The notes beneath the pieces were generated by a model. That model had not been told where the DNA came from and made no database searches. It worked only from the letters and a program-made list of their open reading frames with translations. A DNA stretch of 64,000 bases, taken from positions 1-64,000 of the forward strand of contig JAJDXM010000078.1 of assembly GCA_022823225.1 (NCBI GenBank), given 5' to 3'. A program made the translations under genes and the position numbers. The DNA is from Gemmatimonadota bacterium (lineage in GTDB: Bacteria; Gemmatimonadota; Gemmatimonadetes; Longimicrobiales; Gaopeijiaceae). Positions within the stretch are counted from its first letter, which is position 1; each line of letters opens with the position of its first letter. Shown here one piece after another: positions 6,169-51,957 of this stretch.

Positions 6169-9100
6169 CTACCTCGCCGCCCTCAAACGCACCCCGAACT
6201 GCGCCCGCCACTGCGACGTGGGCACCTCCGGAGCGTGCGGCAGCGCCGCGCGGACCCTCCCCGTCTCGCGGTCCCTCCGGGCAGCACCGACGTAGTGGGC
6301 GATCAACGGGTTCCCGGGTTCGGGGGGCAGAGTGAGCGGGATCGCCGTTCGCCGCACCTCGAAGACCTGGACCACCGGATTCACCGCGTAGACGATCCCC
6401 TGCGAGGAGTCCAGCAGGTTGAGGACATTCAGCAGATCCAGCGTCAGCTCCGCAGACATTCCACGGACCTTTACGGTTTGGGCAACCCGAAGGTCCACCT
6501 GATTCGACCATGGGGTTGAGCAGGTGTTGCGCGCGAGGATCCGGTTCTTCTGCTCCTGGAGGCAGTCCTCGAGCTCGTAGAGCGTGCTCCACATTGCCAG
6601 GGTGCCGAAGCCGGCGAAAGGAAACCGGCCGGGCACGTCGGGCACGTAGAGCAGGTCGTTCGAGAGGCTCGACGCCCGTGGACCGGGGAATCCGTCCCCG
6701 TTCACGTCGCCCCTGTACACATACGAGTAGGGCACCCCCGACTGGCCCACGTAGAGCACGCTGATCTCGGTTCCGCCAAGGTGGGGAAGGATCCTGGCGT
6801 GCGCGCTGGCGACGACCTTGTGCGGACGGTCGAAGCGGGAGCGCTGACGCACCGGAGTGTTGGGATGCAGGTTGATGGGCGTTGAAGCGTAGTTCGACGT
6901 AACGTCGATCGACGTGAGATTCTGGAGGTCCGCCGAACGGGTCAGCGAGTAGCCGGCCCTCAGTCCCAGCGTCTCGCCGAAGTCCTTGCGCACTTCGAAG
7001 GTGGCGGCGTAGGTGAAGTTCTCGCCGCGGTTTGTGACGCGCAGCACCGGCCCGAACTGCTCGTAGCGCCTCCCCCCTTCCCACAATTCCTCCGTGCCGA
7101 GTCCCCTCCTGGACCCCGGTGTAGCTGTGCCGAAGACCTGGCGGACGTTGAAGCCGAAGCCGTCCGTGAAGCCCTCGAGCGGCCCGCCCGCGGCGGGTTC
7201 CCCCAGGACGTTGTCGTTTTCGATGAAGATCTGGTTGAGCGCGAAGTTGTACAGCAGGCTGCCGGACAGGACCATCCCTCCCGGGAGCCGCTGATCGAGG
7301 GCCACCATGGTGCGCAGGTCCTGCGGAAAGGTGAACAGAGGGTCAAAGTAGGTGATGACCGGGGTATGGTCGTCGGGGCTCGGGTCGCTGGCGCACTCGG
7401 TGGGGGCGGGAGTCCCGGGGTCGAAGCCCGGCGCGCGATCCCCCCTGCATACCAGGGTCTGCACGGCCGTCCCGTTGTTCTGGAAGGCGTTCGCGAGCCA
7501 GGCGAAGGTCGGGCGCCCCGTGAAGACGCCTGCGCCGGCGCGGAGCTGGGTGCCCTCGAACGGGCGCCAGTTGAATCCGCCACGCAAAGAGGCGGCGATG
7601 ACTTGCCCGGGGAGCGTCGAGGTGTCGATCCCCATGACCGAATGCAGTGCCTCGTTGCGCTCGGGGCGCCCGACGAAGAGCGGCAGGTCCAGACGCAGGC
7701 CGCCGCGCAGTGTGAACCGCTCGCTGCCGGCCCATTCGTTCTGCCCGTAGACCGAGAGCTCGGCCACCCCGAAACGGGGGTTCGTCCCGTCCTCGGTCAG
7801 CGGGAGCGTGATTTCGTAGCGGTCCGGCCGGTTCTGCTCGAAGTCCTCCATACTCTCGAACTGGTAGCTGCCGATTCCGCCGGGAACGTACCTGCGGTCG
7901 AATCCGAACCACGTGCCGGATGTCCCCATGAGAAGCGAGTGGCGTCCCGCGTCATAGCTCAGGTTGTTCGACATCTGGACAACGAGCTGCTCGAGTCCGT
8001 TGTCCTGGGCGAAGTAGCCGGCGCCCGACCTCACGTCCCTTCTGACCCGGAAGTCGTCGACCTTGCCGTCGAGCCTGACCTCGACCTGGGGTGTGGTGGA
8101 CCTCGCCGTCTCCGAGTCGTCGAGGTGCTGAGCATTGAACGCGAACTCGTTCGACAGCCGTCCGGAAAGCGTCGAGAAGAGCTGGAAGACGGCCGAGTGG
8201 CTGCGCGAGCGGACCCTGCTGCCGCTCGACGAGAACTCGTAGAGATCGCCGGGGAGCCGGTTCGGATCCGGATCGTCGTCCGCCGACGCGAAGCTGTACC
8301 GCAGCATTGCGTCGTGTCGCTCGCCCATCTCCCAGTCGAAGCGCGCGAACAGATTGAAGATCGTGTTCTCCAGCGTCAGCGAAGAAGCCGTGCCCGGGCT
8401 CGTCCCGTAGCCCTCGAGCAGCGAGGTCAGGCGCGCGACGGAATCCGGAACCAGCGACAGCCGGAACGGGTCGGACTCGCCGACGTGGAAGCCGTTCGGG
8501 GGCTCCTGGATCCGCTCCCACTCGCCGGCGACGAAGAAGTGGGCGCGGTCGCGGCGGATCGGTCCGCCGACCGTGAAGCCGCCGTGGACGGTGGAGAGTT
8601 CGGGCACCGTCGCGACATCGTCAACCACCAGCTCGCCGACAAACGCCGCGTTCCGGTAGAATCCGAACGCGGAGGTCTCGAACTCGTTGGTGCCCGACCT
8701 GGTCACCGCGTTCATCGCGCCGCCTGTGAACCCTGACTGCCGGACGTCGAAGGGGGCGACGAGCACCTGGAACTGCTCGACGGCGTCGAGGGGGATGGCC
8801 CGCCCGCCCGCGCGGCCCCCCGCGACGTTCTGAGTCGAAAGTCCGAAGACGTCCTGGTTGAGCGCGCCGTCGACGTTGAGGGTGTTGAAGCGGAAGTTGG
8901 TGCCTGCGACCGAGACTCCCTCCTCCGACACGCGCGAGAGCGGGGAGAGCGCGGCGAAGTCGACGAAGTTGCGCGACAGCGTGGGCAGTTCCTCGATGAT
9001 CTCGGCGGTGACGAGGGTGGAGATCCCGATCCGGCCCGGATCGAACTCGATGTCCCGCCGGGCCTCGACTTCGATGCCCTCGATCTGGACAGCCTCCGGG

Positions 9101-9480
9101 AGGAGCGTGACATCGAGGTTGACGAAGCGGCCGAGGAGCAGTTCGAGCTCCTCGCGCGTCTGGTCCCCGAAGCCGATGCGCGTGACGGTCAGGGTGTAGG
9201 GGCCGCCGGGACGCAGGCTCCGCAGCGTGTAGCGCCCGTCGGCCGTGGTGAGGGCGGTGTTGGTCGCCCCGGTCCCGGTGTGCTCCAGGGTGACGAGTGC
9301 GGCCTCGACCGGCGCGCCGTCCTGGTCGAGGATGCGCCCCCGCAGCCCCGCGGTGGAGATGCCCTGGGCGGCGAGGGGGGCGGCGGTGGCGAGGGTCGCG
9401 GCAAGGGTGACGAGGAGGGGGGCGCGCCATCCGGGCCGCGCGGCGGGCGATGGGCTTTTCAGACGGAGGAATCGAGCCAT
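6169..9480 (-). CDS. TonB-dependent receptor with carboxypeptidase-regulatory domain (paralogue A)
   Basis: 1103 residues. Signal peptide about 1-39 ending PLAAQ; a carboxypeptidase-regulatory/Ig-like domain about 43-125 (GLRGRILDQDGAPVEAALV, then GRYTLRSLRPGGPYTLTVTR). A plug domain about 135-290 includes NVDGALNQDVFGLST and GGAMNAVTRSGTNEF. The remainder is alternating strands of an outer-membrane barrel. This is the SusC/OmpA-like receptor architecture that imports large ligands using TonB energy. AAGGAG lies 7 bases before the ATG. It follows paralogue B by 48 bases and is probably co-transcribed with it. The C-terminus ends in arginine rather than the usual aromatic residue. The ligand is unknown. 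Confidence 0.9.
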   Translation of the reverse strand: MARFLRLKSPSPAARPGWRAPLLVTLAATLATAAPLAAQGISTAGLRGRILDQDGAPVEAALVTLEHTGTGATNTALTTADGRYTLRSLRPGGPYTLTVTRIGFGDQTREELELLLGRFVNLDVTLLPEAVQIEGIEVEARRDIEFDPGRIGISTLVTAEIIEELPTLSRNFVDFAALSPLSRVSEEGVSVAGTNFRFNTLNVDGALNQDVFGLSTQNVAGGRAGGRAIPLDAVEQFQVLVAPFDVRQSGFTGGAMNAVTRSGTNEFETSAFGFYRNAAFVGELVVDDVATVPELSTVHGGFTVGGPIRRDRAHFFVAGEWERIQEPPNGFHVGESDPFRLSLVPDSVARLTSLLEGYGTSPGTASSLTLENTIFNLFARFDWEMGERHDAMLRYSFASADDDPDPNRLPGDLYEFSSSGSRVRSRSHSAVFQLFSTLSGRLSNEFAFNAQHLDDSETARSTTPQVEVRLDGKVDDFRVRRDVRSGAGYFAQDNGLEQLVVQMSNNLSYDAGRHSLLMGTSGTWFGFDRRYVPGGIGSYQFESMEDFEQNRPDRYEITLPLTEDGTNPRFGVAELSVYGQNEWAGSERFTLRGGLRLDLPLFVGRPERNEALHSVMGIDTSTLPGQVIAASLRGGFNWRPFEGTQLRAGAGVFTGRPTFAWLANAFQNNGTAVQTLVCRGDRAPGFDPGTPAPTECASDPSPDDHTPVITYFDPLFTFPQDLRTMVALDQRLPGGMVLSGSLLYNFALNQIFIENDNVLGEPAAGGPLEGFTDGFGFNVRQVFGTATPGSRRGLGTEELWEGGRRYEQFGPVLRVTNRGENFTYAATFEVRKDFGETLGLRAGYSLTRSADLQNLTSIDVTSNYASTPINLHPNTPVRQRSRFDRPHKVVASAHARILPHLGGTEISVLYVGQSGVPYSYVYRGDVNGDGFPGPRASSLSNDLLYVPDVPGRFPFAGFGTLAMWSTLYELEDCLQEQKNRILARNTCSTPWSNQVDLRVAQTVKVRGMSAELTLDLLNVLNLLDSSQGIVYAVNPVVQVFEVRRTAIPLTLPPEPGNPLIAHYVGAARRDRETGRVRAALPHAPEVPTSQWRAQFGVRLRAAR

Positions 9481-9528
9481 GCGCGCTCCTTCGTTGGGTG
9501 TGGGTGGTCGTCTCGGTCTACATTCCGG

Positions 9529-12500
9529 CTACCTCGCCAGCCTCAACCGGATCCCGAGCTGCGCCCGCCACTGCGACGTCGGCACCTCGGGCACATACGG
9601 CAGCGCCGCCTCGAGCGCACCGGTGAAGCGATCGCGCTGCAGTGCCCCGATGTAGCGGGCTTTCAGCACGGGTATCGACCTCAGGTTCGAGCTGGGCTCC
9701 GGGAACCGCCTGACCTCGAAGATCTGCACCACCGGATTGACCACGTGCACGATCCCCCACCCCGAGTGCAGCAGATTGAGGAGGTTGAGCAGATCCAGGG
9801 AGAGTTCCGCCGACAACCCGCCGGCCTCGACCGTCTGCGCAACCCGGAGGTCGATCCGGTTCGACCAGGGCGTGCGGCAGGTATTCCGTGCGAGGATCCG
9901 GATCACCTGCCTCTGAAGACACTCTTCGAGGTCGTAGAGGCTGTCCCACAGATCCCTGCTCACGGGGTCTCCGGGGAAACCGGTGACCCTGTCGGTGATG
10001 TAGATCAGGTCGTTGGGAAGGCTCGCGCTCCTCGCGCCCGGGAAGTCGTCCCCGTTCACGTCGCCCCTGTACACGTACGAGTAGGGCACACCCGACTGCC
10101 CCACGTAGAGGAGGCTGATCTCCGTCCCCCCGAACCGGGGCAGGATGCGGGCGTGCGCACTGGCCACCCACTTCTGCGGCCGGTCGAAGCGCGACGACTG
10201 CCGCACCGGGACGTTTGGATGCACGTTGACGGGAGTGGAGGCGAAGTTCGACGTGATGTCGATCGAAGTGAGGTTCTGCAGATCGGCCGACCGGGTCAGC
10301 GAGTATCCGACCCGCACCCCCAGCGTCTCGCCGAAGTCCTTCCTCAGTTCGAAGGTGGCGGCGTAGGTGAAGTTCTCGCCCTTGTTGGTGACCTTGAGCA
10401 CCGGACCGAAGCGGTCGGTTCGCCGGCCGCCCTCCCAGAGCACCTCGTTGCCCCTGAAGTGCCCCGGACTGGGTGTCCCGAACACCTGGCGGCGCGCGAA
10501 GCCGAAGCCGAGCGAATACCCGTCCTGCGCTTCGCCCACGATCCGGTTCCCCCTGAGGTTGACGTTCTCGATGAAGACCTGCTGGAGGGCGTAGTTGTAG
10601 ATGAGGCTCCCCGAGAGGACCAGCCCCCCGGGCAGCCGCTGATCCAGCGCGACCATCGTGCGCAAGTCCTGCGGGAACAGGAAATCGGGATCGAAGTAGT
10701 TGATGACCGTCGCCGACTGCGGGGGTCGAACTCGGCCAGCGCATACCGTGGGGGCCGGGCCGGTGGGATCGTAGGCCGGCGCCGAGCCGCCTCGGCACAC
10801 CAGGGTCCGTGCGGCGATTCCGTTGTTCTGGAAGGCGTTCGCGAGCCAGGCGAAGGCCGGACGGCCCGTAAACACCCCGGAGCCCGCCCGGATCTGCGTG
10901 CCGTCGAAGGGGCGCCAGTTGAGTCCGGCCCTGAGCGACAGCGTCGGGTTCCCGCCGGGGAGCCGGGAGGTGTCGATCTGCAGCGCGGAATCGAGCGCCG
11001 GGTTGGCGGCCGGACGCCCGAGGAATACCGGGAGGTCCACCCGGGCCCCCGCCCGCAGGGTCAGGCGCTCGCGGGCGGCGAACTCGTCCTGGACGTAGAT
11101 GGAGAATTCCTGCACCCCGAAGGCGGGATTCGAACCGTCGTCGGTCAGCGGGATCGTGATCTCGTAGCGGTCCGGCTCGTTCTGCGCCAGTTCCTCGAGG
11201 TTCTCGAACTGGTAGCTTCCGAACGCGCCCGGAACGTACCGGCGGTCGAACTCGAACCGGGTGCCCGATACTCCCAGCAGGAGCGAATGGCGCCCCGCGT
11301 CGTGGCTCAGGTTGTTGGCCACCTGGATCACCCGCTGCCGAAGTCCGTTGTCCTGGGCGAAATAGCCGGCGCCCGAGCGCACGTCGCGCCGAACGGCCAC
11401 GTCGTCGACCGTGCCGTCAAGGGTGACCTCGACCTGGGGCAGCGTACTGCTCGCCGTCTCGGAGTCGTCGAGGTGCTGGAGATTCAGCGCCAACTCGTTG
11501 GAAAACCCGGCCGGCAACGACGAAAACAGCTGAAAGACCGCCGAGTGGCTGCGCGCGTGGATCCTGCTGGCGCTCGAAGACAGTTCGTAGAGGTCGCCGG
11601 GCAGACGGTTGGGATCGGCGTCGTCGTCCGCCGAGGCGAGGCTGTAGCGCAGCATGGCGTCGTGCCGGTCTCCCATTTCCCAGTCTAAGCGCGCGAAAAG
11701 GTTGAAGATCGTGTTTTCCAGAGTGAAGGACTGGGCAGTGCCGGGGTCGGCGCCGAACCCCTGAAGGAGCGACTGCATGCGGGCCACCGAATCGGGGACC
11801 AGCGACAGCCGAAACGCCTCGGACTCTCCCACATGAAACCCGTTCGGCGGCTCGCGAACCCGCTCCCACTCGCCGGCCACGAAGAAGTGCGCGCGGTCGC
11901 GGAGGATGGGGCCGCCCGCCGTGAACCCGCCGTGCGCGGTGGAGAGCGTGGGTTCGGTGGCGACGTCGCCGATGACCAGGGGGCCTACCATGGCGTCGTT
12001 GCGGTAGAACCCGAAGGCGGAGGCCTCGAACCGGTTCGTCCCCGACTTCGTGACCGCGTTCATGGCACCGCCCGTGAATCCGGACTGGCGCACGTCGAAG
12101 GGGGCGACGAGCACCTGGAACTGCTCTACCGCCTCGAGCGGGATCACCCGTCCGCCCGCCCTGCCTCCCGCGATGTTGTCGGTCGAGAGCCCGAAGACAT
12201 CCTGGTTGAGCGCGCCGTCCACGTTGAGCGTATTGAAGCGGAAATTGGTGCCCGCGATCGAGACGCCCTCCTCCGACGTCCGCGAGAGCGGGGAGAGCGC
12301 GGCGAAGTCGACGAAATTGCGGGTCACCGTCGGCAGCTGCTCGATGAGGTCGGCGGTGACCAGGGTGGAGATCCCGATCCGGCCCGGGTCGAACTCGATG
12401 TCCTGCCGGGCCTCCACCTCGATGCCCTCGATCACGACGGCCTCGGGTAAGAGTGTGACGTCCAGGTTGACGAATCGGCCGAGGAGCAGCTCGATGTCCT

Positions 12501-12810
12501 CGCGGGTGTGGTCCCCGAGGCCGATGCGCGTGACGGTCATGGTGTAGGGGCCGCCGGGGCGCAGGCCGCGCAGCGAGTAGCGGCCGTCGGGCGTGGTGAC
12601 CGCCGTGTTGGTGGCGCCGGTTTCGGTGTGTTCCAGGGTGACGAGCGCGGCCTCGACCGGGTCCCCCGCCTGATCGACCACGCGGCCGCGCAGCCCGGCG
12701 GTGGAGATGCCCTGGGCGGCGAGCGGGGCGGGCGCAGCGATGGCGGCCAGACCGGCGAAGCTGATGGCCAGAGTGGCCAGACGTGCCAGGGGTGGAGCGA
12801 ACGGATTCAA
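9529..12810 (-). CDS. TonB-dependent receptor with carboxypeptidase-regulatory domain (paralogue B)
   Basis: 1093 residues from a TTG at 12810 that has AAGGAG 6 bases upstream; a frame to 12891 exists but lacks a better site. The signal peptide ends APLAAQ. The architecture matches the downstream gene and the two align with few gaps throughout, including the same QGISTAGLRGR start of the mature protein, LNQDVFGLST plug motif and PEVPTSQWRAQ C-terminal strand. They are therefore tandem duplicates. First gene of the pair, with a candidate promoter at 12879-12907. The duplication suggests related but distinct ligands, possibly linked to the propeller lipoproteins just upstream. Confidence 0.9.
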   Translation of the reverse strand: MNPFAPPLARLATLAISFAGLAAIAAPAPLAAQGISTAGLRGRVVDQAGDPVEAALVTLEHTETGATNTAVTTPDGRYSLRGLRPGGPYTMTVTRIGLGDHTREDIELLLGRFVNLDVTLLPEAVVIEGIEVEARQDIEFDPGRIGISTLVTADLIEQLPTVTRNFVDFAALSPLSRTSEEGVSIAGTNFRFNTLNVDGALNQDVFGLSTDNIAGGRAGGRVIPLEAVEQFQVLVAPFDVRQSGFTGGAMNAVTKSGTNRFEASAFGFYRNDAMVGPLVIGDVATEPTLSTAHGGFTAGGPILRDRAHFFVAGEWERVREPPNGFHVGESEAFRLSLVPDSVARMQSLLQGFGADPGTAQSFTLENTIFNLFARLDWEMGDRHDAMLRYSLASADDDADPNRLPGDLYELSSSASRIHARSHSAVFQLFSSLPAGFSNELALNLQHLDDSETASSTLPQVEVTLDGTVDDVAVRRDVRSGAGYFAQDNGLRQRVIQVANNLSHDAGRHSLLLGVSGTRFEFDRRYVPGAFGSYQFENLEELAQNEPDRYEITIPLTDDGSNPAFGVQEFSIYVQDEFAARERLTLRAGARVDLPVFLGRPAANPALDSALQIDTSRLPGGNPTLSLRAGLNWRPFDGTQIRAGSGVFTGRPAFAWLANAFQNNGIAARTLVCRGGSAPAYDPTGPAPTVCAGRVRPPQSATVINYFDPDFLFPQDLRTMVALDQRLPGGLVLSGSLIYNYALQQVFIENVNLRGNRIVGEAQDGYSLGFGFARRQVFGTPSPGHFRGNEVLWEGGRRTDRFGPVLKVTNKGENFTYAATFELRKDFGETLGVRVGYSLTRSADLQNLTSIDITSNFASTPVNVHPNVPVRQSSRFDRPQKWVASAHARILPRFGGTEISLLYVGQSGVPYSYVYRGDVNGDDFPGARSASLPNDLIYITDRVTGFPGDPVSRDLWDSLYDLEECLQRQVIRILARNTCRTPWSNRIDLRVAQTVEAGGLSAELSLDLLNLLNLLHSGWGIVHVVNPVVQIFEVRRFPEPSSNLRSIPVLKARYIGALQRDRFTGALEAALPYVPEVPTSQWRAQLGIRLRLAR

Positions 12811-12878
12811 ATCGCACTCCTTCACCCGCCTCGATGATCGCAATGGGCATCCAGGCTGTTGCCCTTGCCAGCGCCGGG

Positions 12879-12907
12879 ATGATCCGGGCATGGCCTACCC
12901 TTGTCAA
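12879..12907 (-). promoter_or_regulatory. Candidate sigma-70-type promoter for the TonB receptor pair
   Basis: Reading the minus strand, TTGACA (12907-12902) is followed after 17 bases by GATCAT (12884-12879), about 69 bases before the TTG start. The -35 hexamer is perfect; the -10 matches four of six positions. Confidence 0.45.
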
Positions 12908-12928
12908 TACGCCAGCGACAACGCGCGC

Positions 12929-14308
12929 TTACGGCACGCCCCTGCGAATCCGGTACCCCTCCACCCGCTCGACGCCCATTTCGTCACGCCGGACCGCCAG
13001 CAGGAATTCCCGGTCGATCCAGCAGGGACCCAGGAACCGGTGACAGAGCATCAGGTCCGGCAGCGCCGGGATCACACCCAGCCAGCGCCCTTGCGGATCG
13101 AAGATGCTCCACTGGTCCGGCGCTCCCGCTTCCGACGCCGACCACTCCCGGACCCACAGATGGCCCTGGGCATCCACGACCAGGCCGGCCACCGGCGGAA
13201 ACGCGTCCCTCAGCGGCATTCCGGCAAAGAACCGCTCCGCGGACATGCCGAGTTCGTCTTCCAGATCCCCCCACGGGCTCCAGAACGCGACGAAGGCCGA
13301 CTTCCACGCCTCCTGCGCCGCTTCGGTGACCCGCAGCGGATCGCCCGTGCGGCGGATGATCCGGATCAGGTTCCCGTCCAGGGAGAACTGGTGGATCTCG
13401 TCCCTGTCACCGTTGCTGATGTAGACCGAGGGCGGATCGCCTCCGGCCGCCAGGTAGGAGTCGAGCATGAGGGTGGGCAGGCCGGGCATGCCGCCGGGGT
13501 CCTGCGGTACCCAGACCTCGAGCCCCTCCCACGACCCGAGAGAACGCGCGGGGTAGTTGTCGTCGATCCTGACGAACTCGCCCGGTGGCCCGCGCACAAA
13601 GCTCTCCGCCGGAGTCTCCGACGGGAATGGATTTCCCGCCACGACGACCAGAGAGCCGTCGGGCAGCGGGAACATCGTCGATTCGGCATTCGAACCGGGG
13701 ATCTCGTCCATCATTCGCGCAAGGTCGATCGATCGTTCGGCCAGCAACACTCCATCCGTGTCGAAGTAGCTGGCCGGGGCGAACCAGTAGTCCCACACGA
13801 CCAGGGTATCCGGGGCCAGGTACTGCAGGAGTTGAGGGCGGTCGAACTCGCCGGGTCCTTCGCCGGGACCGCCGATGACCCTGGACAGCTCGCCCGACGG
13901 CTCGAACAGGTAGAGCTGGTGGTTCCCCTGGGAGAGAACGGCCACCCTTCCGTCCTCCAGGCGGGCGATCCCCACGACCCGCCAGATCAGTTCCGCCGAG
14001 TCGCGGGCCGCCGCCGTGCCCGCGCCACCCGGGGCCGCTTCGCCGCCGCCGGCACCGCCGCCCCCGTCCCGGCCTCCGCCCAGCACGATCTCGGGCTCCT
14101 CATCGATCGTCCAGAACTGCCCGGGCGGATACTCCGGCGCGTGGTTCTCCACGATCTCGATCCCGGCGGAATCCCACACGGTGACCGGGCTTTTGCCCGT
14201 GCTCGAACGCGCGTCCGGCGGTGCCCCGTCGCATCCCGCCGTTGCCGCCAGGGCCAATGCGGCGCAGGACAACACGGATCCGACGCGCACACACGAGCGA
14301 AATGTCAT
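12929..14308 (-). CDS. 6-bladed beta-propeller lipoprotein (paralogue 1)
   Basis: 459 residues from the ATG at 14308. An N-terminal lipoprotein signal ends at AATAGC. Propeller blades carry the family signature GPGEGPGEFDRPQ, plus GRVAVLSQGNHQLYLFEPSG and HLWVREWSASEAG. Such PF17170-type proteins bind ligands or partners at the cell surface; none is assigned an enzyme activity here. A perfect palindrome ACATTATGTAATGT sits 4 bases before the start and overlaps a candidate -10, with no Shine-Dalgarno, which suggests a leaderless and repressible transcript. The first half is nearly identical to paralogue 2 (see repeats) while the centre diverges. Confidence 0.85.
   Translation of the reverse strand: MTFRSCVRVGSVLSCAALALAATAGCDGAPPDARSSTGKSPVTVWDSAGIEIVENHAPEYPPGQFWTIDEEPEIVLGGGRDGGGGAGGGEAAPGGAGTAAARDSAELIWRVVGIARLEDGRVAVLSQGNHQLYLFEPSGELSRVIGGPGEGPGEFDRPQLLQYLAPDTLVVWDYWFAPASYFDTDGVLLAERSIDLARMMDEIPGSNAESTMFPLPDGSLVVVAGNPFPSETPAESFVRGPPGEFVRIDDNYPARSLGSWEGLEVWVPQDPGGMPGLPTLMLDSYLAAGGDPPSVYISNGDRDEIHQFSLDGNLIRIIRRTGDPLRVTEAAQEAWKSAFVAFWSPWGDLEDELGMSAERFFAGMPLRDAFPPVAGLVVDAQGHLWVREWSASEAGAPDQWSIFDPQGRWLGVIPALPDLMLCHRFLGPCWIDREFLLAVRRDEMGVERVEGYRIRRGVP
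13758..14190. repeat. Long direct repeat, copy 1 of 2
   Basis: This 433-base stretch aligns without gaps to 15214-15646 (constant offset of 1456) with scattered single-base changes. It encodes the N-terminal halves of the two propeller lipoproteins. Confidence 0.85.
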
Positions 14309-14340
14309 GATAACATTACATAATGTCGTGTCCACTTTAC
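14309..14340 (-). promoter_or_regulatory. Palindromic operator over propeller-1 promoter
   Basis: ACATTA-CA-TAATGT at 14313-14326 is a perfect 6+2+6 palindrome, extended to TAATGTCGT (14321-14329). The same nine bases occur at 17812-17820 in front of the BlaI-type repressor gene. A TATGTA -10 candidate (14322-14317) lies inside the palindrome. BlaI/MecI/CopY repressors bind ACA/TGT-type palindromes, so this is a plausible target. Confidence 0.55.
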
Positions 14341-14384
14341 AATCCTCCGATTCGCATGGCATCGCACCCGGTTCCGCCAACCCC

Positions 14385-15758
14385 TCACGGCCCCCCGTCA
14401 CCCCTGCGAATCCGGTACCCCTCTACCCGCTCGATGCCGAGTCCGTCGTTTCCGACGGCAAGCAGGAAATCACGGTCCACCCAGCAGGGGCTTACGCGCT
14501 GGTGGCAAAGCAACAGATCCGGAACGCCGTGAACGACTCCCAGCCACCGCCCATCCGGGCTGAAGACGCTCCACTGGTCGGGCATCCCCGGTTCGGCAGC
14601 CGACCATTCGCGGACCCACAGGTTCCCATCCGTGTCGACCACCAGGCCCGCCACCGGCGGATAGGCTTCCCGGCGTGGCATCCCGCGGCTGAAATCCTCC
14701 CAGCTCATTCCGAATACGCCCTGCATGTCTTCGTGGAACGTCTCCAGCGTCTCCAGCCATACGTCATGGCCCCTGTCCGAGACCGGCACCGGCCCCGCCG
14801 TGCGGCGGATGATCCTCACCAGGCTGCCGTCGTGCGAGAACTGCTGGATGTCGTTCCGTTCCCCGTCGCCGATGTAGACCGAAGGCGGATCGCCCCCCGT
14901 TGCGATGTGCAGGTCGACGAGGGTGTTGATGAGAAACGCGTCGTTCCTGCCGGCGGTGGTCTGGGGGATCCACAATTGCCAAACCGCCCAGGGCCCGAGG
15001 GGGTGCGCCGTGTACGTGCCGTCGACCAGTGCGAGATCCACCGGGGGTCTGTAGAAGGCGCCCGGCGGCGGGGGAGACGCCGACTGCTCCCCTCCCCAGA
15101 CCACGAACGACCCGTTCGCAAGCGGAATCACCTGCGATTCGGCGGTCGCCCCCGGGACGCGCGCCATCACGGTCAGGAGATCGATCGTCCGTTCCCTCAG
15201 GAGCGTGCCGCCGGTGTCGAAGTAGCTGGCCGGGGCGAACCAGTAGTCCCACACCACGAGGGTATCGGGGGCCAGGTACTGCAGGTGTTGGGGACGGTCG
15301 AACTCGCCGGGTCCTTCGCCGCGACCGCCGATGACCCTGGACAGCTCGCCCGACGGCTCGAACAGGTAGAGCTGGTGGTTCCCCTGGGAGAGAACCGCCA
15401 CCCTTCCGTCCTGCAGGCGAGCGATCCCCACGACCCGCCAGATCAGTTCCGCCGAGTCGCGGGCCGCCACCGCGCCCGCGCCACCCGGAGCCGCTTCGCC
15501 ACCGCCCGCACCCCCGCCCCCGTCCTGGCCCCCGCCCAGCACGAACTCGGGCTCCGGATCCAGGGTCCAGAACTGCCCGGGCGGATACTCCGGCGCGTGG
15601 TTCTCCACGATCTCGATCCCGGCGGAATCCCACACGGTGACCGGGCCGCCGGCGACCTCCGAGTCTATGCGCGGCGAGCGGTCGCACGCGGCGGTGCAAG
15701 CCACGACCAGCGCCGCGGCGCCGGCCACGAAACAGGCGGGGCTACTCCGCCGCCGCAT
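14385..15758 (-). CDS. 6-bladed beta-propeller lipoprotein (paralogue 2)
   Basis: 457 residues. Lipoprotein-type signal (AALVVACTAAC), then the same blade motifs as paralogue 1, including GRGEGPGEFDRPQHLQYLAP and NLWVREWSAAEPG. The ATG at 15758 lies 17 bases inside the end of the M56 protease gene, so it is translationally coupled to that gene and belongs to the blaI-blaR1-like operon. After about residue 185 it departs from paralogue 1, with different blade loops (GEQSASPPPPGAFYRPP), and becomes similar again in the last 90 residues. This suggests the two proteins share a scaffold but recognise different partners. Confidence 0.85.
   Translation of the reverse strand: MRRRSSPACFVAGAAALVVACTAACDRSPRIDSEVAGGPVTVWDSAGIEIVENHAPEYPPGQFWTLDPEPEFVLGGGQDGGGGAGGGEAAPGGAGAVAARDSAELIWRVVGIARLQDGRVAVLSQGNHQLYLFEPSGELSRVIGGRGEGPGEFDRPQHLQYLAPDTLVVWDYWFAPASYFDTGGTLLRERTIDLLTVMARVPGATAESQVIPLANGSFVVWGGEQSASPPPPGAFYRPPVDLALVDGTYTAHPLGPWAVWQLWIPQTTAGRNDAFLINTLVDLHIATGGDPPSVYIGDGERNDIQQFSHDGSLVRIIRRTAGPVPVSDRGHDVWLETLETFHEDMQGVFGMSWEDFSRGMPRREAYPPVAGLVVDTDGNLWVREWSAAEPGMPDQWSVFSPDGRWLGVVHGVPDLLLCHQRVSPCWVDRDFLLAVGNDGLGIERVEGYRIRRGDGGP
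15214..15646. repeat. Long direct repeat, copy 2 of 2
   Basis: Partner of 13758-14190, ungapped. Identity stops sharply at the 5' side of this interval (13757/15213), inside the coding sequences, as expected of gene conversion or a recent partial duplication. Confidence 0.85.
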
Positions 15759-17304
15759 GGGGCCGGATGTCCTTCGGCGGCGATGCGGACGGATATTCCC
15801 GAATCACAGAGTCGCGCGGCAGAAGATTCCTGCCGGCCGCATCGAGCAACATCCGTAGTTCCCTGGCTCCGATGAGGGCAGCATACTCCCGATTCCCATT
15901 CTCCCTCTCCCGGAGTTCCCGACGCAGCGCCTCGGTGCGTCTGCCGGCCTCCTCGTCGGAGATCCGTTCATTCTCCAGCTCCACGTTGACCGAAAGCACT
16001 CTCACGAAACCGTAAACGAACTGGTTGAGCGCCTCTTCCTCGCTGAGCGTGCGGGATTCCACCCGGGAGATCAGGTGGTCGACCAAGTCCTCCGTGACTG
16101 CGGCGAACTGCGCGGCGGTTCCCTCGTTCAGGGCGCCCGCTTCGACCGCCGCACCCAGTTCCCCCCTCATCTCCGCGAAGCTCTCCTGGAAATAGGCGCC
16201 CAGCGACCCGTGTTCGGCCCTGATCGCATCCAGATCGATCTCCGCCAGCATCTGATCCGCCAACTCCGCCATTTCGGCGTTCAGAAAGTCCTCGTCGGAC
16301 CAGGCCAGGGGCGTGGGCGGTGCCTCGTCGGCATCGGCGGCGGGGACGGCGCGTTCCGGCCCGTCCGCCGACCCGCAGTAGAGCGTGCCGAAGGGCAGCA
16401 CGCAGACGACGGCAATCCAGGTCGCGACGCGCAGCCAGCGCGGGGCGGGGGCGGCCGTCTTCGGTGTCATGATCATTTCAAGCCTCCTTCTCAGTGTTCG
16501 GGGATCGCTGCCGCGGTCGGCGGCGCTGGCGAAGGCGGGGGCGCGGACGGTCCTGGCCTGCGACATCAGCTCGATGGCGCGCAGCAGCGACCTGGCGTAG
16601 ATCCGGGGACCGGACTTCAGCGCGGCCACTCCCAGCGCGTCGCAGCACCATTCCTCGGCGGCGCGGAGCTGGCGGCGGGCCCACCAGGCGACCGGATTCC
16701 ACCAGAAGACCGAGCAGGCCAGCCATTCCAGCCACCGCACCAGGTAGTCCCGGCGGCGCGCGTGGGCGAGTTCGTGGGCGAGGACGGCGCGCAGTTCGTC
16801 ACAGTCGAGCGCGTCGATAAGGAACCGGGGGACCAGAATCCGCACCTTCCCGCCCGTCCACCACACCATGGGAGAGACGCGCGCGCTCGTGGTGTGGACT
16901 TCGGGTATGCGGGTCATGCCGAGGTTGTGGCCGATCTCGGCCGCCTGCCGCTGGAGGTCCGGTGGCGCCACCCACGCCGCCTGCCTGAGCGAGCGCTGGA
17001 AGCGCAGGGCGCGCAGCAGCGTCCAGCCCAGGAGCGCCGCCGTGCCGCCCATCCACAGGAGCACGAGCAGGGCGCCGACCCCGCCGGGCGACATCCCCGA
17101 CGCGCCGGCGACCCCGCTTCCCACCGCCGGGAAGACCGGAAGGGCAACGACCGCCGGGGCCAGCAGCGCGATCAGCACCAGCAGCCAGAGCGGGTAGGAG
17201 ACCGCGCACCGTCCGACGCGCCGGTGTACAACCCAGACGCCGCAGGCGAGGACGATCGAGAAGATCAGCTTGGTGCCGCCGATCTGCAGAAGAAGGCTGG
17301 TCAT
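15742..17304 (-). CDS. BlaR1/MecR1-like M56 membrane zinc protease with lipoprotein-like C-terminal module
   Basis: 520 residues. About four N-terminal membrane segments, then the M56 metallopeptidase site HELAHARRRDYLVRWLEW (HExxH near residue 178) with WWNPVAWWARRQLRAAEEWCCD downstream, as in BlaR1. Instead of a penicillin-binding sensor domain the protein has another hydrophobic segment (PRWLRVATWIAVVCVLPFG) followed by a charged helical region of about 190 residues. That segment closely resembles the start of the small lipoprotein at 17952-18314. The expected role is to sense a signal and cleave the BlaI-type repressor encoded 84 bases upstream. It overlaps the propeller-2 gene. Confidence 0.85.
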   Translation of the reverse strand: MTSLLLQIGGTKLIFSIVLACGVWVVHRRVGRCAVSYPLWLLVLIALLAPAVVALPVFPAVGSGVAGASGMSPGGVGALLVLLWMGGTAALLGWTLLRALRFQRSLRQAAWVAPPDLQRQAAEIGHNLGMTRIPEVHTTSARVSPMVWWTGGKVRILVPRFLIDALDCDELRAVLAHELAHARRRDYLVRWLEWLACSVFWWNPVAWWARRQLRAAEEWCCDALGVAALKSGPRIYARSLLRAIELMSQARTVRAPAFASAADRGSDPRTLRRRLEMIMTPKTAAPAPRWLRVATWIAVVCVLPFGTLYCGSADGPERAVPAADADEAPPTPLAWSDEDFLNAEMAELADQMLAEIDLDAIRAEHGSLGAYFQESFAEMRGELGAAVEAGALNEGTAAQFAAVTEDLVDHLISRVESRTLSEEEALNQFVYGFVRVLSVNVELENERISDEEAGRRTEALRRELRERENGNREYAALIGARELRMLLDAAGRNLLPRDSVIREYPSASPPKDIRPHAAAE

Positions 17305-17388
17305 GCTCGACCTCCGGGAAGGGTGTTGAGCCGGGAAAGGGTGATGTGGCCGCGGGCCTGGACCATCCGGTTGGTCAGCCAGGTCATG

Positions 17389-17754
17389 CTATTCGTCCAG
17401 AAAGGCGCGGAGTCTCGCGATTTCGGCGCCGGACAGCCGGTCGTCCTCCACGAGCCGGGTGATGATCGGCACCAGCGACCCCTCGGTGAGCCGGTTCGCC
17501 AGCGCCTCGAGCTGATTCCCCGCGTACGTCTCCTTCGACAGGGTGGGGGAGAAGAGGTTCACCCCCAGGTCGCGGTCGCGGACCACGTATCCCTTGTCCT
17601 CGAGCCGCTTCAGCAGCCGCTGCACCGTGCCGTGCTGCGGCCGGGAATCATCCGGGTAGAGTGCCTCCTGGATCAGGCGTGCCGGCAACCGGCCCCTCCG
17701 CCACAGCAACTCCATCACCGCCAGCTCCGAATTGGGCAGGGCAGGCATCGTCAC
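17389..17754 (-). CDS. BlaI/MecI/CopY-family transcriptional repressor
   Basis: 121 residues. A winged helix: ELAVMELLWRRGRLPARLIQEAL, then GTVQRLLKRLEDKGYVVRDR, the recognition helix and wing typical of BlaI. The C-terminal part should dimerise. The GTG at 17754 is preferred because AAGGAG is 8 bases upstream; an ATG two codons later is also in frame. It is expected to repress its own operon until the M56 protease inactivates it. The intergenic region just upstream contains matching palindromic sites. Confidence 0.9.
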   Translation of the reverse strand: MTMPALPNSELAVMELLWRRGRLPARLIQEALYPDDSRPQHGTVQRLLKRLEDKGYVVRDRDLGVNLFSPTLSKETYAGNQLEALANRLTEGSLVPIITRLVEDDRLSGAEIARLRAFLDE

Positions 17755-17782
17755 GGATCACGCTCCTTCGTTCCCGCGGGTG

Positions 17783-17821
17783 TTACGACATCATATCGTA
17801 ATATTAAGACCTAATGTCGTA
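17783..17821. promoter_or_regulatory. Candidate BlaI-type operators upstream of the repressor gene
   Basis: TTACGA/TCGTAA arms at 17783-17788 and 17796-17801 form one inverted repeat. TACGACAT (17784-17791) also pairs with ATGTCGTA (17814-17821). The TAATGTCGT at 17812-17820 repeats exactly at 14321-14329. The site lies 30-70 bases before the repressor start, as expected of autoregulation. Confidence 0.55.
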
Positions 17822-17951
17822 TAAAGTCAAGCGGACAAACGCCCGAGGCGTCGAAACGCCCCGAACGCCCGGTTGTCGCAACGGTGATTTGCGCTGCGTT
17901 GCCTGTCCCGCGGGGTGCTGCCGGCTCGTCGCCGAAGTACTTCCCCGGCTC

Positions 17952-18314
17952 CTACCTGTTGCCGCTCCCGCCCCGTGCCGCTTCCAGGCGCTGCTGGGCG
18001 CGTGAAACCCGCTGACGCATCTGCTCCTCGGTGATTTCACCAGCCGCGACCTGAGCGCGGAGTTCCCGGCGGAGCTGGTTGATCCGTTCCGTTCCGTCCC
18101 CCTCGGACGGCTGATCCGAGGACGCCCGGTCGCCGGCCTGTGCAGCGTCGCTCGGTGCCGGTTCAGTTGCTTCCATGGCCTCATCGCCGGGTGCGGCGGC
18201 CGTGTCCGGCTGGTCGCAGGACCCGAAGCCGAGCGGCAGCGCGCACATCACCGCGACGCAGGACGCCGTGCGCAACCATCTCGGAACGGTGCAGGTGTTG
18301 CTTTCATCGATCAT
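17952..18314 (-). CDS. Small lipoprotein related to the M56 protease C-terminal module
   Basis: 120 residues from the ATG at 18314, with GGAGA 6 bases upstream; the longer frame to 18524 is unsupported. A hydrophobic segment ALPLGFGSCDQP has a lipoprotein-type cysteine. An acidic linker and a helical tail follow (INQLRRELRAQVAAGEITEEQM, then VSRAQQRLEAARG). The first 50 residues (PRWLRTASCVAVMCALPLG) mirror the internal segment of the M56 protein (PRWLRVATWIAVVCVLPFG). It lies 197 bases upstream of the repressor gene on the same strand and is probably a component or regulator of the same system. Confidence 0.65.
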   Translation of the reverse strand: MIDESNTCTVPRWLRTASCVAVMCALPLGFGSCDQPDTAAAPGDEAMEATEPAPSDAAQAGDRASSDQPSEGDGTERINQLRRELRAQVAAGEITEEQMRQRVSRAQQRLEAARGGSGNR

Positions 18315-50688: not shown

Positions 50689-51957
50689 ATGACACCCCGT
50701 TCCAGCCGCCAAACGGACCCACGGCACAGCGCGCCGGCCCGCCGATGGCTCCTTTGCTGTCTGCCTGCGGCCTTCGCCGCCTGCGATCCGGCCCCCGACC
50801 CCACGCTCTCCACCCGTTCCGATTCGGCCGGCATCCCCATCATCACGGCGGAGGTGCCGGCGCGGGTCCCGGGCCAAGGCTGGCGGGTCAGCGAGGAGCC
50901 GCTGGTCCGGATCGGTGCGGTGGAGGGGCCCCGCGAACAGCTGCTCGACGGCGTGGTCGGGGCCGTGCGCCTGAGCGATGGCGACATCGTGCTGGCCGAG
51001 TGGAGCACCGGGGAACTTCGCCGCTACGACTCGGACGGCGCCTTCCTGTGGCGGGCGGCCGGACAGGGAGAGGGCCCCGGCGAACATCGCCTGATGAGGT
51101 TCATGGGGTCGCTTCCGGGCGATACACTGGTGACCTGGGACAGCGGGCTGGACCGGGTCCAGCTCTTCGGGCCCGATGGCGGCCTGGCGCACATTTTTCC
51201 GGTGGAGACGCCCTGGCCCCGGTTTCCGCCGGTGCATGCGATCGGGGTGTCCGGGCGGAATCTGCTCATCGTGTTCCACGACGCTCGCGGGGAGGTCCCG
51301 AACGGAGTCGTGCGGTGGCCGCCGGTCCGGATCGGCGCCCTGTCGCTTGAAGACGGCAGCATCCGGGAACTGATCGATGTCCCCGGCGCCGAGGCCCACA
51401 TCACGCCGATGGGGGAGGGGCAGGGTGCGGTCGGTGAATACCTCTTCGGCAAGGGGCCCCGGTTCGCGGTGTCCGCCGGCGGTCTGGCCGTTGTCGACAC
51501 GGAACGCTTATCCGTTCGATGGATCTCGGTGGGCGACGGGACCACCACCCGAATCCTCAGGCGCGACTCTCCGGTGCAAGAGGTCACGATCGAGGACGTG
51601 GACGCCTGGGTCGAGTGGATGACCGCGCTCAGCGTCGAGCAGGGCCTGCATCTGCCGCCCGGCCTGCGCGAACAGCCGATGGCACCGACGCTGCCGGCGG
51701 TGAAGTCGATCCATCTGGACGCGGCCGGGAACCTCTGGGTGGAGCCGCACTCCCGCCACGGCGCCGAGATGCCGCCGTTCGAGGTCTACGCGCCCGACGG
51801 CACCTGGCTGGGGACCGTCGCGGTGCCGCCCGGGCTTCAGCTGGAGAACCGGGTGGGTCTGCCGACCGGCTTCGAGGTAGGAGACGACTATGTCCTGGGC
51901 GTCTGGCGCGACGAGCTCGGCGTGGAATACGTGCGGGTGTACGGGCTGACGAAGTAG
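50689..51957 (+). CDS. 6-bladed beta-propeller lipoprotein (propeller 4)
   Basis: 422 residues from the ATG at 50689. Lipoprotein signal CLPAAFAACDP. It opens with the same SDSAGIPIITAEVP start (compare WDSAGIEIVENHAP in propellers 1 and 2), then blades with AAGQGEGPGEHRLMRFMGS and NLWVEPHSRHGAEMP. There is no clear Shine-Dalgarno, while TATCCT lies about 10 bases before the ATG, compatible with a very short leader. Divergent from propeller 3; its 3' end converges on the methionine operon. Confidence 0.8.
   Translation: MTPRSSRQTDPRHSAPARRWLLCCLPAAFAACDPAPDPTLSTRSDSAGIPIITAEVPARVPGQGWRVSEEPLVRIGAVEGPREQLLDGVVGAVRLSDGDIVLAEWSTGELRRYDSDGAFLWRAAGQGEGPGEHRLMRFMGSLPGDTLVTWDSGLDRVQLFGPDGGLAHIFPVETPWPRFPPVHAIGVSGRNLLIVFHDARGEVPNGVVRWPPVRIGALSLEDGSIRELIDVPGAEAHITPMGEGQGAVGEYLFGKGPRFAVSAGGLAVVDTERLSVRWISVGDGTTTRILRRDSPVQEVTIEDVDAWVEWMTALSVEQGLHLPPGLREQPMAPTLPAVKSIHLDAAGNLWVEPHSRHGAEMPPFEVYAPDGTWLGTVAVPPGLQLENRVGLPTGFEVGDDYVLGVWRDELGVEYVRVYGLTK

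Follow-up and report, generated by a model that had tools for sequence, protein, structure and literature searches.

A predicted BlaI/BlaR1-like switch with propeller lipoproteins in place of a beta-lactam sensor in uncultured Gemmatimonadota

A group of uncultured Gemmatimonadota appears to have kept the repressor, the protease and a recognizable DNA target of the penicillin-resistance switch, with a propeller protein at the place where the penicillin sensor would be. In the window, that is, the whole stretch of 64,000 nucleotides analyzed here (contig C48 of a 4.19-Mb genome in 97 contigs), a run of minus-strand genes encodes, in the direction of transcription, a 120-aa protein, a BlaI-type repressor, a protease of the M56 family, a pair of propeller lipoproteins and a pair of outer-membrane receptors. 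On balance, we lean towards a switch that resembles BlaI/BlaR1, has a six-bladed propeller protein instead of the beta-lactam sensor and drives propeller genes. The strongest new result is a predicted tandem operator of 17-bp dyads upstream of blaI, whose conservation extends to most of the clade's BlaI loci within the genus.

Organization of the locus

A preliminary description of this region, made from the letters alone, had proposed a same-strand run of repressor, M56 protease, two propeller lipoproteins and two receptors. The run is present as proposed; family searches confirmed the labels given to BlaI, M56 and the propellers, whereas the labels "SusC-like" and "small lipoprotein" had to be given up (see below). 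The run is flanked by genes that we take, from their sequences, to be carB on one side and an HD-domain gene and an nth-like gene on the other. The gene order recurs in relatives, where genes were called by a purpose-written script rather than a standard gene finder, and together with the frequent M56-propeller adjacency described below this places the neighbourhood beyond chance.

The repressor (121 aa; positions 17389..17754, minus strand) matches the winged-helix family PF03965 (Penicillinase_R) with 78.1 bits against a cut-off of 22.6 (E 8.7e-22), and MecI structures in the PDB match its residues 7-120 (E 4.8e-5). The M56 membrane protease (520 aa; 15742..17304, minus) matches PF05569 with 90.6 bits (E 1.3e-25). 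Its HELAH motif aligns with the BlaR1 active site, and a profile match to BlaR1 (8exs, 3e-7) spans the HEXXH motif. In agreement with the claim that this protease has no beta-lactam sensor domain, Pfam lists no transpeptidase or penicillin-binding (PBP) sensor domain in the protein, and the NCBIfam model blaR1_generic gives 71.6 bits, far under its cut-off of 400. Both BlaI and M56 look intact.

The first propeller gene, PROP1 (14385..15758, minus), shares 17 nt with the M56 gene, an overlap that had been noticed before, and is followed by PROP2 (12929..14308, minus), whose product shares 65% identity with that of PROP1. Their description as two propeller lipoproteins holds: PROP1 exceeds the cut-off of PF17170 (DUF5128; 24.3 bits against 22.9), PROP2 falls slightly under it (21.4 bits), and the predicted model of PROP1 has a propeller fold of the six-bladed type (pLDDT 79.8, pTM 0.81), with a best Z of 19.1 to the NHL propeller 1q7f over 262 residues (rmsd 3.6). 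An outer-membrane location of PROP1, apart from M56, is possible and counts against the proposed switch. Another propeller-type protein with about 30% identity to PROP1 is encoded elsewhere in the window (50935-51951, plus strand; L029).

A tandem operator upstream of blaI

Upstream of blaI, two 17-bp dyads of the form TACGACA-N3-TGTCGTA with starts 21 bp apart (17784..17821, minus) overlap a promoter-like sequence, TTGACT-18-TAATAT (17801..17830, minus). The operator was searched by pattern. In 20 of 100 shuffles of the window two matches to the single dyad were reached; a single dyad is therefore within chance, and the weight of the predicted operator at BlaI's own promoter comes from its conservation. 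The more distant BlaI paralogues of the same genome lack the operator, which counts against the proposed switch. A candidate single BlaI-like site in front of PROP2 (14314..14330, minus) is weak, with four mismatches, and is conserved in G012.

When the genome itself was scanned for the tandem pattern at no more than two mismatches, three BlaI/M56 loci, one chance-looking match and one site on contig C42 were recovered. At one of these three loci (C52:68760), the tandem operator at C52:68751-68794 (L143) is accompanied by M56 and propeller genes with no room for blaI before M56, so that this locus may respond to BlaI encoded at a different place. A similar arrangement occurs at L140, where M56 directly follows the tandem operator, no blaI was called between them and the BlaI of another locus may be in control.

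Association of M56 proteases with propellers

A scan of named genomes yielded 45 loci, nearly all from records titled Gemmatimonadetes or Gemmatimonadota. A propeller gene comes next on the same strand after 30 of the 46 M56 genes that have a next gene, compared with 75 of the 530 other genes of the same loci (14%), an excess of about 4.6-fold in counts that ignore kinship. The order BlaI-M56-propeller, whose conservation had been suggested as a check, thus recurs in related genomes. Moreover, eight M56 proteins carry a C-terminal propeller fused immediately after the protease portion (L283, L285, L288, two in L290, L295, and L049 and L057 in the genome of the window). The L285 fusion resides in a single contig of 4.47 Mb and is hardly an assembly chimera. 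The C-terminal part of a fused protein aligns to propellers (Z 12) in a predicted model that is weak overall and in which the protease domain is not judgeable; the structural matches listed for this model are filled by the propeller, and BlaR1 is not among them. In BlaR1, the beta-lactam sensor is C-terminal, the same position as that of the propeller in these fusions.

Some BlaI-M56 loci have no propeller, which counts against the proposed switch. In a different family of this class, the operator again accompanies M56 and BlaI, with no propellers. The core can therefore work without a propeller, which was probably added to an older repressor-protease core.

Two further observations concern individual loci. 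A protein of the FGE-sulfatase type (PF03781), not found in the window, is encoded between M56 and the propeller in three relatives, at L266 (11685-12644), L263 (11688-12665) and L264 (10362-11162). One BlaI-M56-propeller locus, L301, belongs to a record titled Gammaproteobacteria, by misbinning or transfer.

A second locus next to NamZ

Operator sites of the BlaI type seem to extend to another locus, adjacent to the gene of a cell-wall recycling enzyme. The site on contig C42 lies about 40 bp upstream of a propeller gene (P0008), which is followed by P0009, encoding the exo-beta-N-acetylmuramidase NamZ (PF07075, 1.4e-83; PF20732, 2.2e-40). Opposite this unit are two GH3 genes, one of them with a beta-lactamase-family domain, and genes for a sodium:solute symporter and a BadF-type ATPase. 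Of the 23 genus genomes searched, every one encodes a NamZ, either of this type or of a second one, and a propeller with an operator stands before it only in G000, G005, G012 and G021. These four all have the propeller-receptor operon as well (split over two contigs in G021), so that the site before the NamZ-side propeller is found in four of the five genomes with this operon. The fifth, G008, has the operon and lacks the distant site, which counts against the proposed switch.

The half-site ACGATA is a derived form peculiar to the lineage: three of its four distant sites and all four of its cis operators have it, and none of the 18 other cis operators compared does. No operator-type site was found directly before namZ itself, and the gap between propeller and namZ ranges from 76 to about 490 bp; hence co-control of NamZ is only possible. 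With the conserved order, the M56 fusions and a BlaI-type operator before a distant propeller gene, the link between BlaI-M56 and propeller lipoproteins drawn in the preliminary description is supported.

Oar-type receptors and alternative explanations

Both receptors are of the Oar type, each with a PF25183 barrel and a PF13620 carboxypeptidase-regulatory domain; no plug family is listed for either by Pfam up to E 0.1. Receptor 1 (9529..12810, minus; TTG start assumed) matches these families with 5.8e-43 and 2.8e-20, and receptor 2 (6169..9480, minus), 74% identical to it, with 3e-46 and 4.3e-21. The tandem is expanded in some relatives, with four Oar copies in G008 (L231) and three in G012 (L233).

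At the carB-HD-nth locus, several genomes have Oar and lack BlaI-M56, and others have BlaI-M56 and lack Oar; the two are thus separable. Of the conserved order that had been expected to run from BlaI to the TonB receptor, the BlaI-M56-propeller part stands, whereas Oar is a separable resident, often without propellers. It may also keep its own promoter: the TTGACA of a promoter-like sequence before the first Oar gene (TTGACA-17-GATCAT; 12879..12907, minus) is kept in four genomes, so that Oar may be expressed independently. No terminator-like site turned up immediately upstream of this gene, and read-through from the BlaI promoter is therefore also possible. In genomes without Oar at this place, a beta-lactamase-family serine hydrolase is often encoded upstream of the operator and BlaI-M56 (L110, L112, L113 and L114; in L112 at 11315-12769, minus, PF00144).

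Three other explanations of the gene run were considered. The best of them, which we nevertheless regard as unlikely, is that the propellers are surface lids for Oar and that BlaI-M56 only controls an operon for uptake or secretion, the signal being sensed by M56 or by some other factor. Tandem propellers adjoin tandem Oar genes in five genomes, and BtuG, a propeller lipoprotein that caps the TonB transporter BtuB (PMC10404256) and is likewise encoded beside it, has structures among the Foldseek matches of PROP1. However, BtuG is seven-bladed and binds B12, whereas the receptors here are of the Oar type and the propellers occur mainly with M56: they follow M56 at many Oar-free loci and are fused to it, and the Oar orthologues of L234, L235, L238, L240, L241 and L242 have no adjoining propeller. 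That the genes are chance neighbours, with propellers and Oar independent of BlaI-M56, is improbable. The genome is indeed rich in propellers (115 matches), and the occurrence of Oar without BlaI-M56 and its promoter-like sequence fit such independence; the M56-propeller adjacency well over the local background, the fusions and the operator before a distant propeller gene do not. Finally, the earlier suggestion of SusC-like receptors with a propeller replacing SusD and reporting ligand state to the protease draws on gene order only and is most improbable, since the two receptors score 15.7 and 12.3 bits with the SusC model TIGR04056, whose cut-off is 368.25, SusD-family proteins are encoded elsewhere in the genome, several Oar orthologues of the genus lack a propeller gene beside them, and BtuG/BtuB is already an example of a TonB receptor with a propeller lipoprotein.

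Relation to known systems and proposed mechanism

BlaR1-type signalling is known mainly for beta-lactams. As in the BlaI-BlaR1 and MecI-MecR1 systems of Staphylococcus aureus and Bacillus licheniformis, the repressor adjoins an M56 membrane protease with a HEXXH motif, and dyads are located at the promoter. Unlike in those systems, there is no penicillin-binding sensor, a propeller adjoins the protease or is fused to its C-terminus, and the predicted targets are propeller genes rather than a beta-lactamase gene.

From the gene content, gene order, fusions and operators read in the DNA, we infer the following course for the propeller-linked switch, for which BlaR1 is the precedent (PMC9834060). 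The propeller would sense a ligand or the state of the envelope outside the cytoplasm and its signal would switch on M56; activated M56 would cut BlaI, and the loss of BlaI would free the operator. Derepression would then raise BlaI, M56 and the propellers, together with the distant propeller and perhaps NamZ; the two Oar receptors might be raised by read-through, and may also be transcribed from a separate promoter.

A pair of this kind that answers a signal other than beta-lactams is already known: PetR-PetP of cyanobacteria combines a BlaI-family factor with a BlaR1-family protease (PMC7896320). PetP is proposed to be copper-dependent and its regulon differs from that of the system described here; the parts of that report available to us mention no propeller. 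In B. licheniformis, a peptidoglycan fragment is a BlaI coactivator (PMC3305447); a similar link to peptidoglycan turnover is hinted at here, by gene position only, in the BlaI-type site near the exo-muramidase gene namZ. A broader version of the switch is doubtful: a family of BlaR1-like proteases that sense via propellers and in this case respond to fragments of the cell wall or to a different signal from the envelope, with one BlaI controlling several propeller units genome-wide, including the one beside namZ. The Oar protein of Myxococcus xanthus is a TonB-dependent receptor needed for protease secretion (PMC6434023); two tandem copies are present here, and their placement in the family follows from Pfam domains rather than from comparison with M. 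xanthus Oar.

Our literature searches on BlaI/M56 in Gemmatimonadota found nothing relevant, and no paper pairing BlaR1-type proteases with propellers was found in the literature available to us. With a repressor-protease core that is paired with or fused to a propeller and has a readable operator, the signal of a non-penicillin BlaR1 becomes testable. Such modules are numerous in the genus and would together make a large sensory system, so far unread.

The 120-aa protein upstream of blaI

The 120-aa membrane-anchored protein (17952..18314, minus), initially labelled a small lipoprotein, matches the fourth membrane helix (TM4) and tail of M56 proteins (phmmer, 4e-6 to 5e-10), and that label is misleading. 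Owing to this similarity to the M56 tail, the idea that it is an independent sensor was dropped. In G005, this position is occupied by a full second BlaI-M56 pair, so that the BlaI-M56 pairs of G005 stand in tandem (L098, 13487-15482, minus), each with its own operator-like dyads. This suggests that the 120-aa protein may be what is left of another such pair. G008 and G012 retain its reading frame, and proteins similar to it are encoded near Oar in L304 and L242, the L242 copy without BlaI-M56; it may therefore still be functional.

Also in the window, an open frame on the minus strand (241-1065) encodes many near-identical coiled-coil repeats (GEIAGLRDEMRSEIASVRTDL...), and a similar repeat protein is present in L110.
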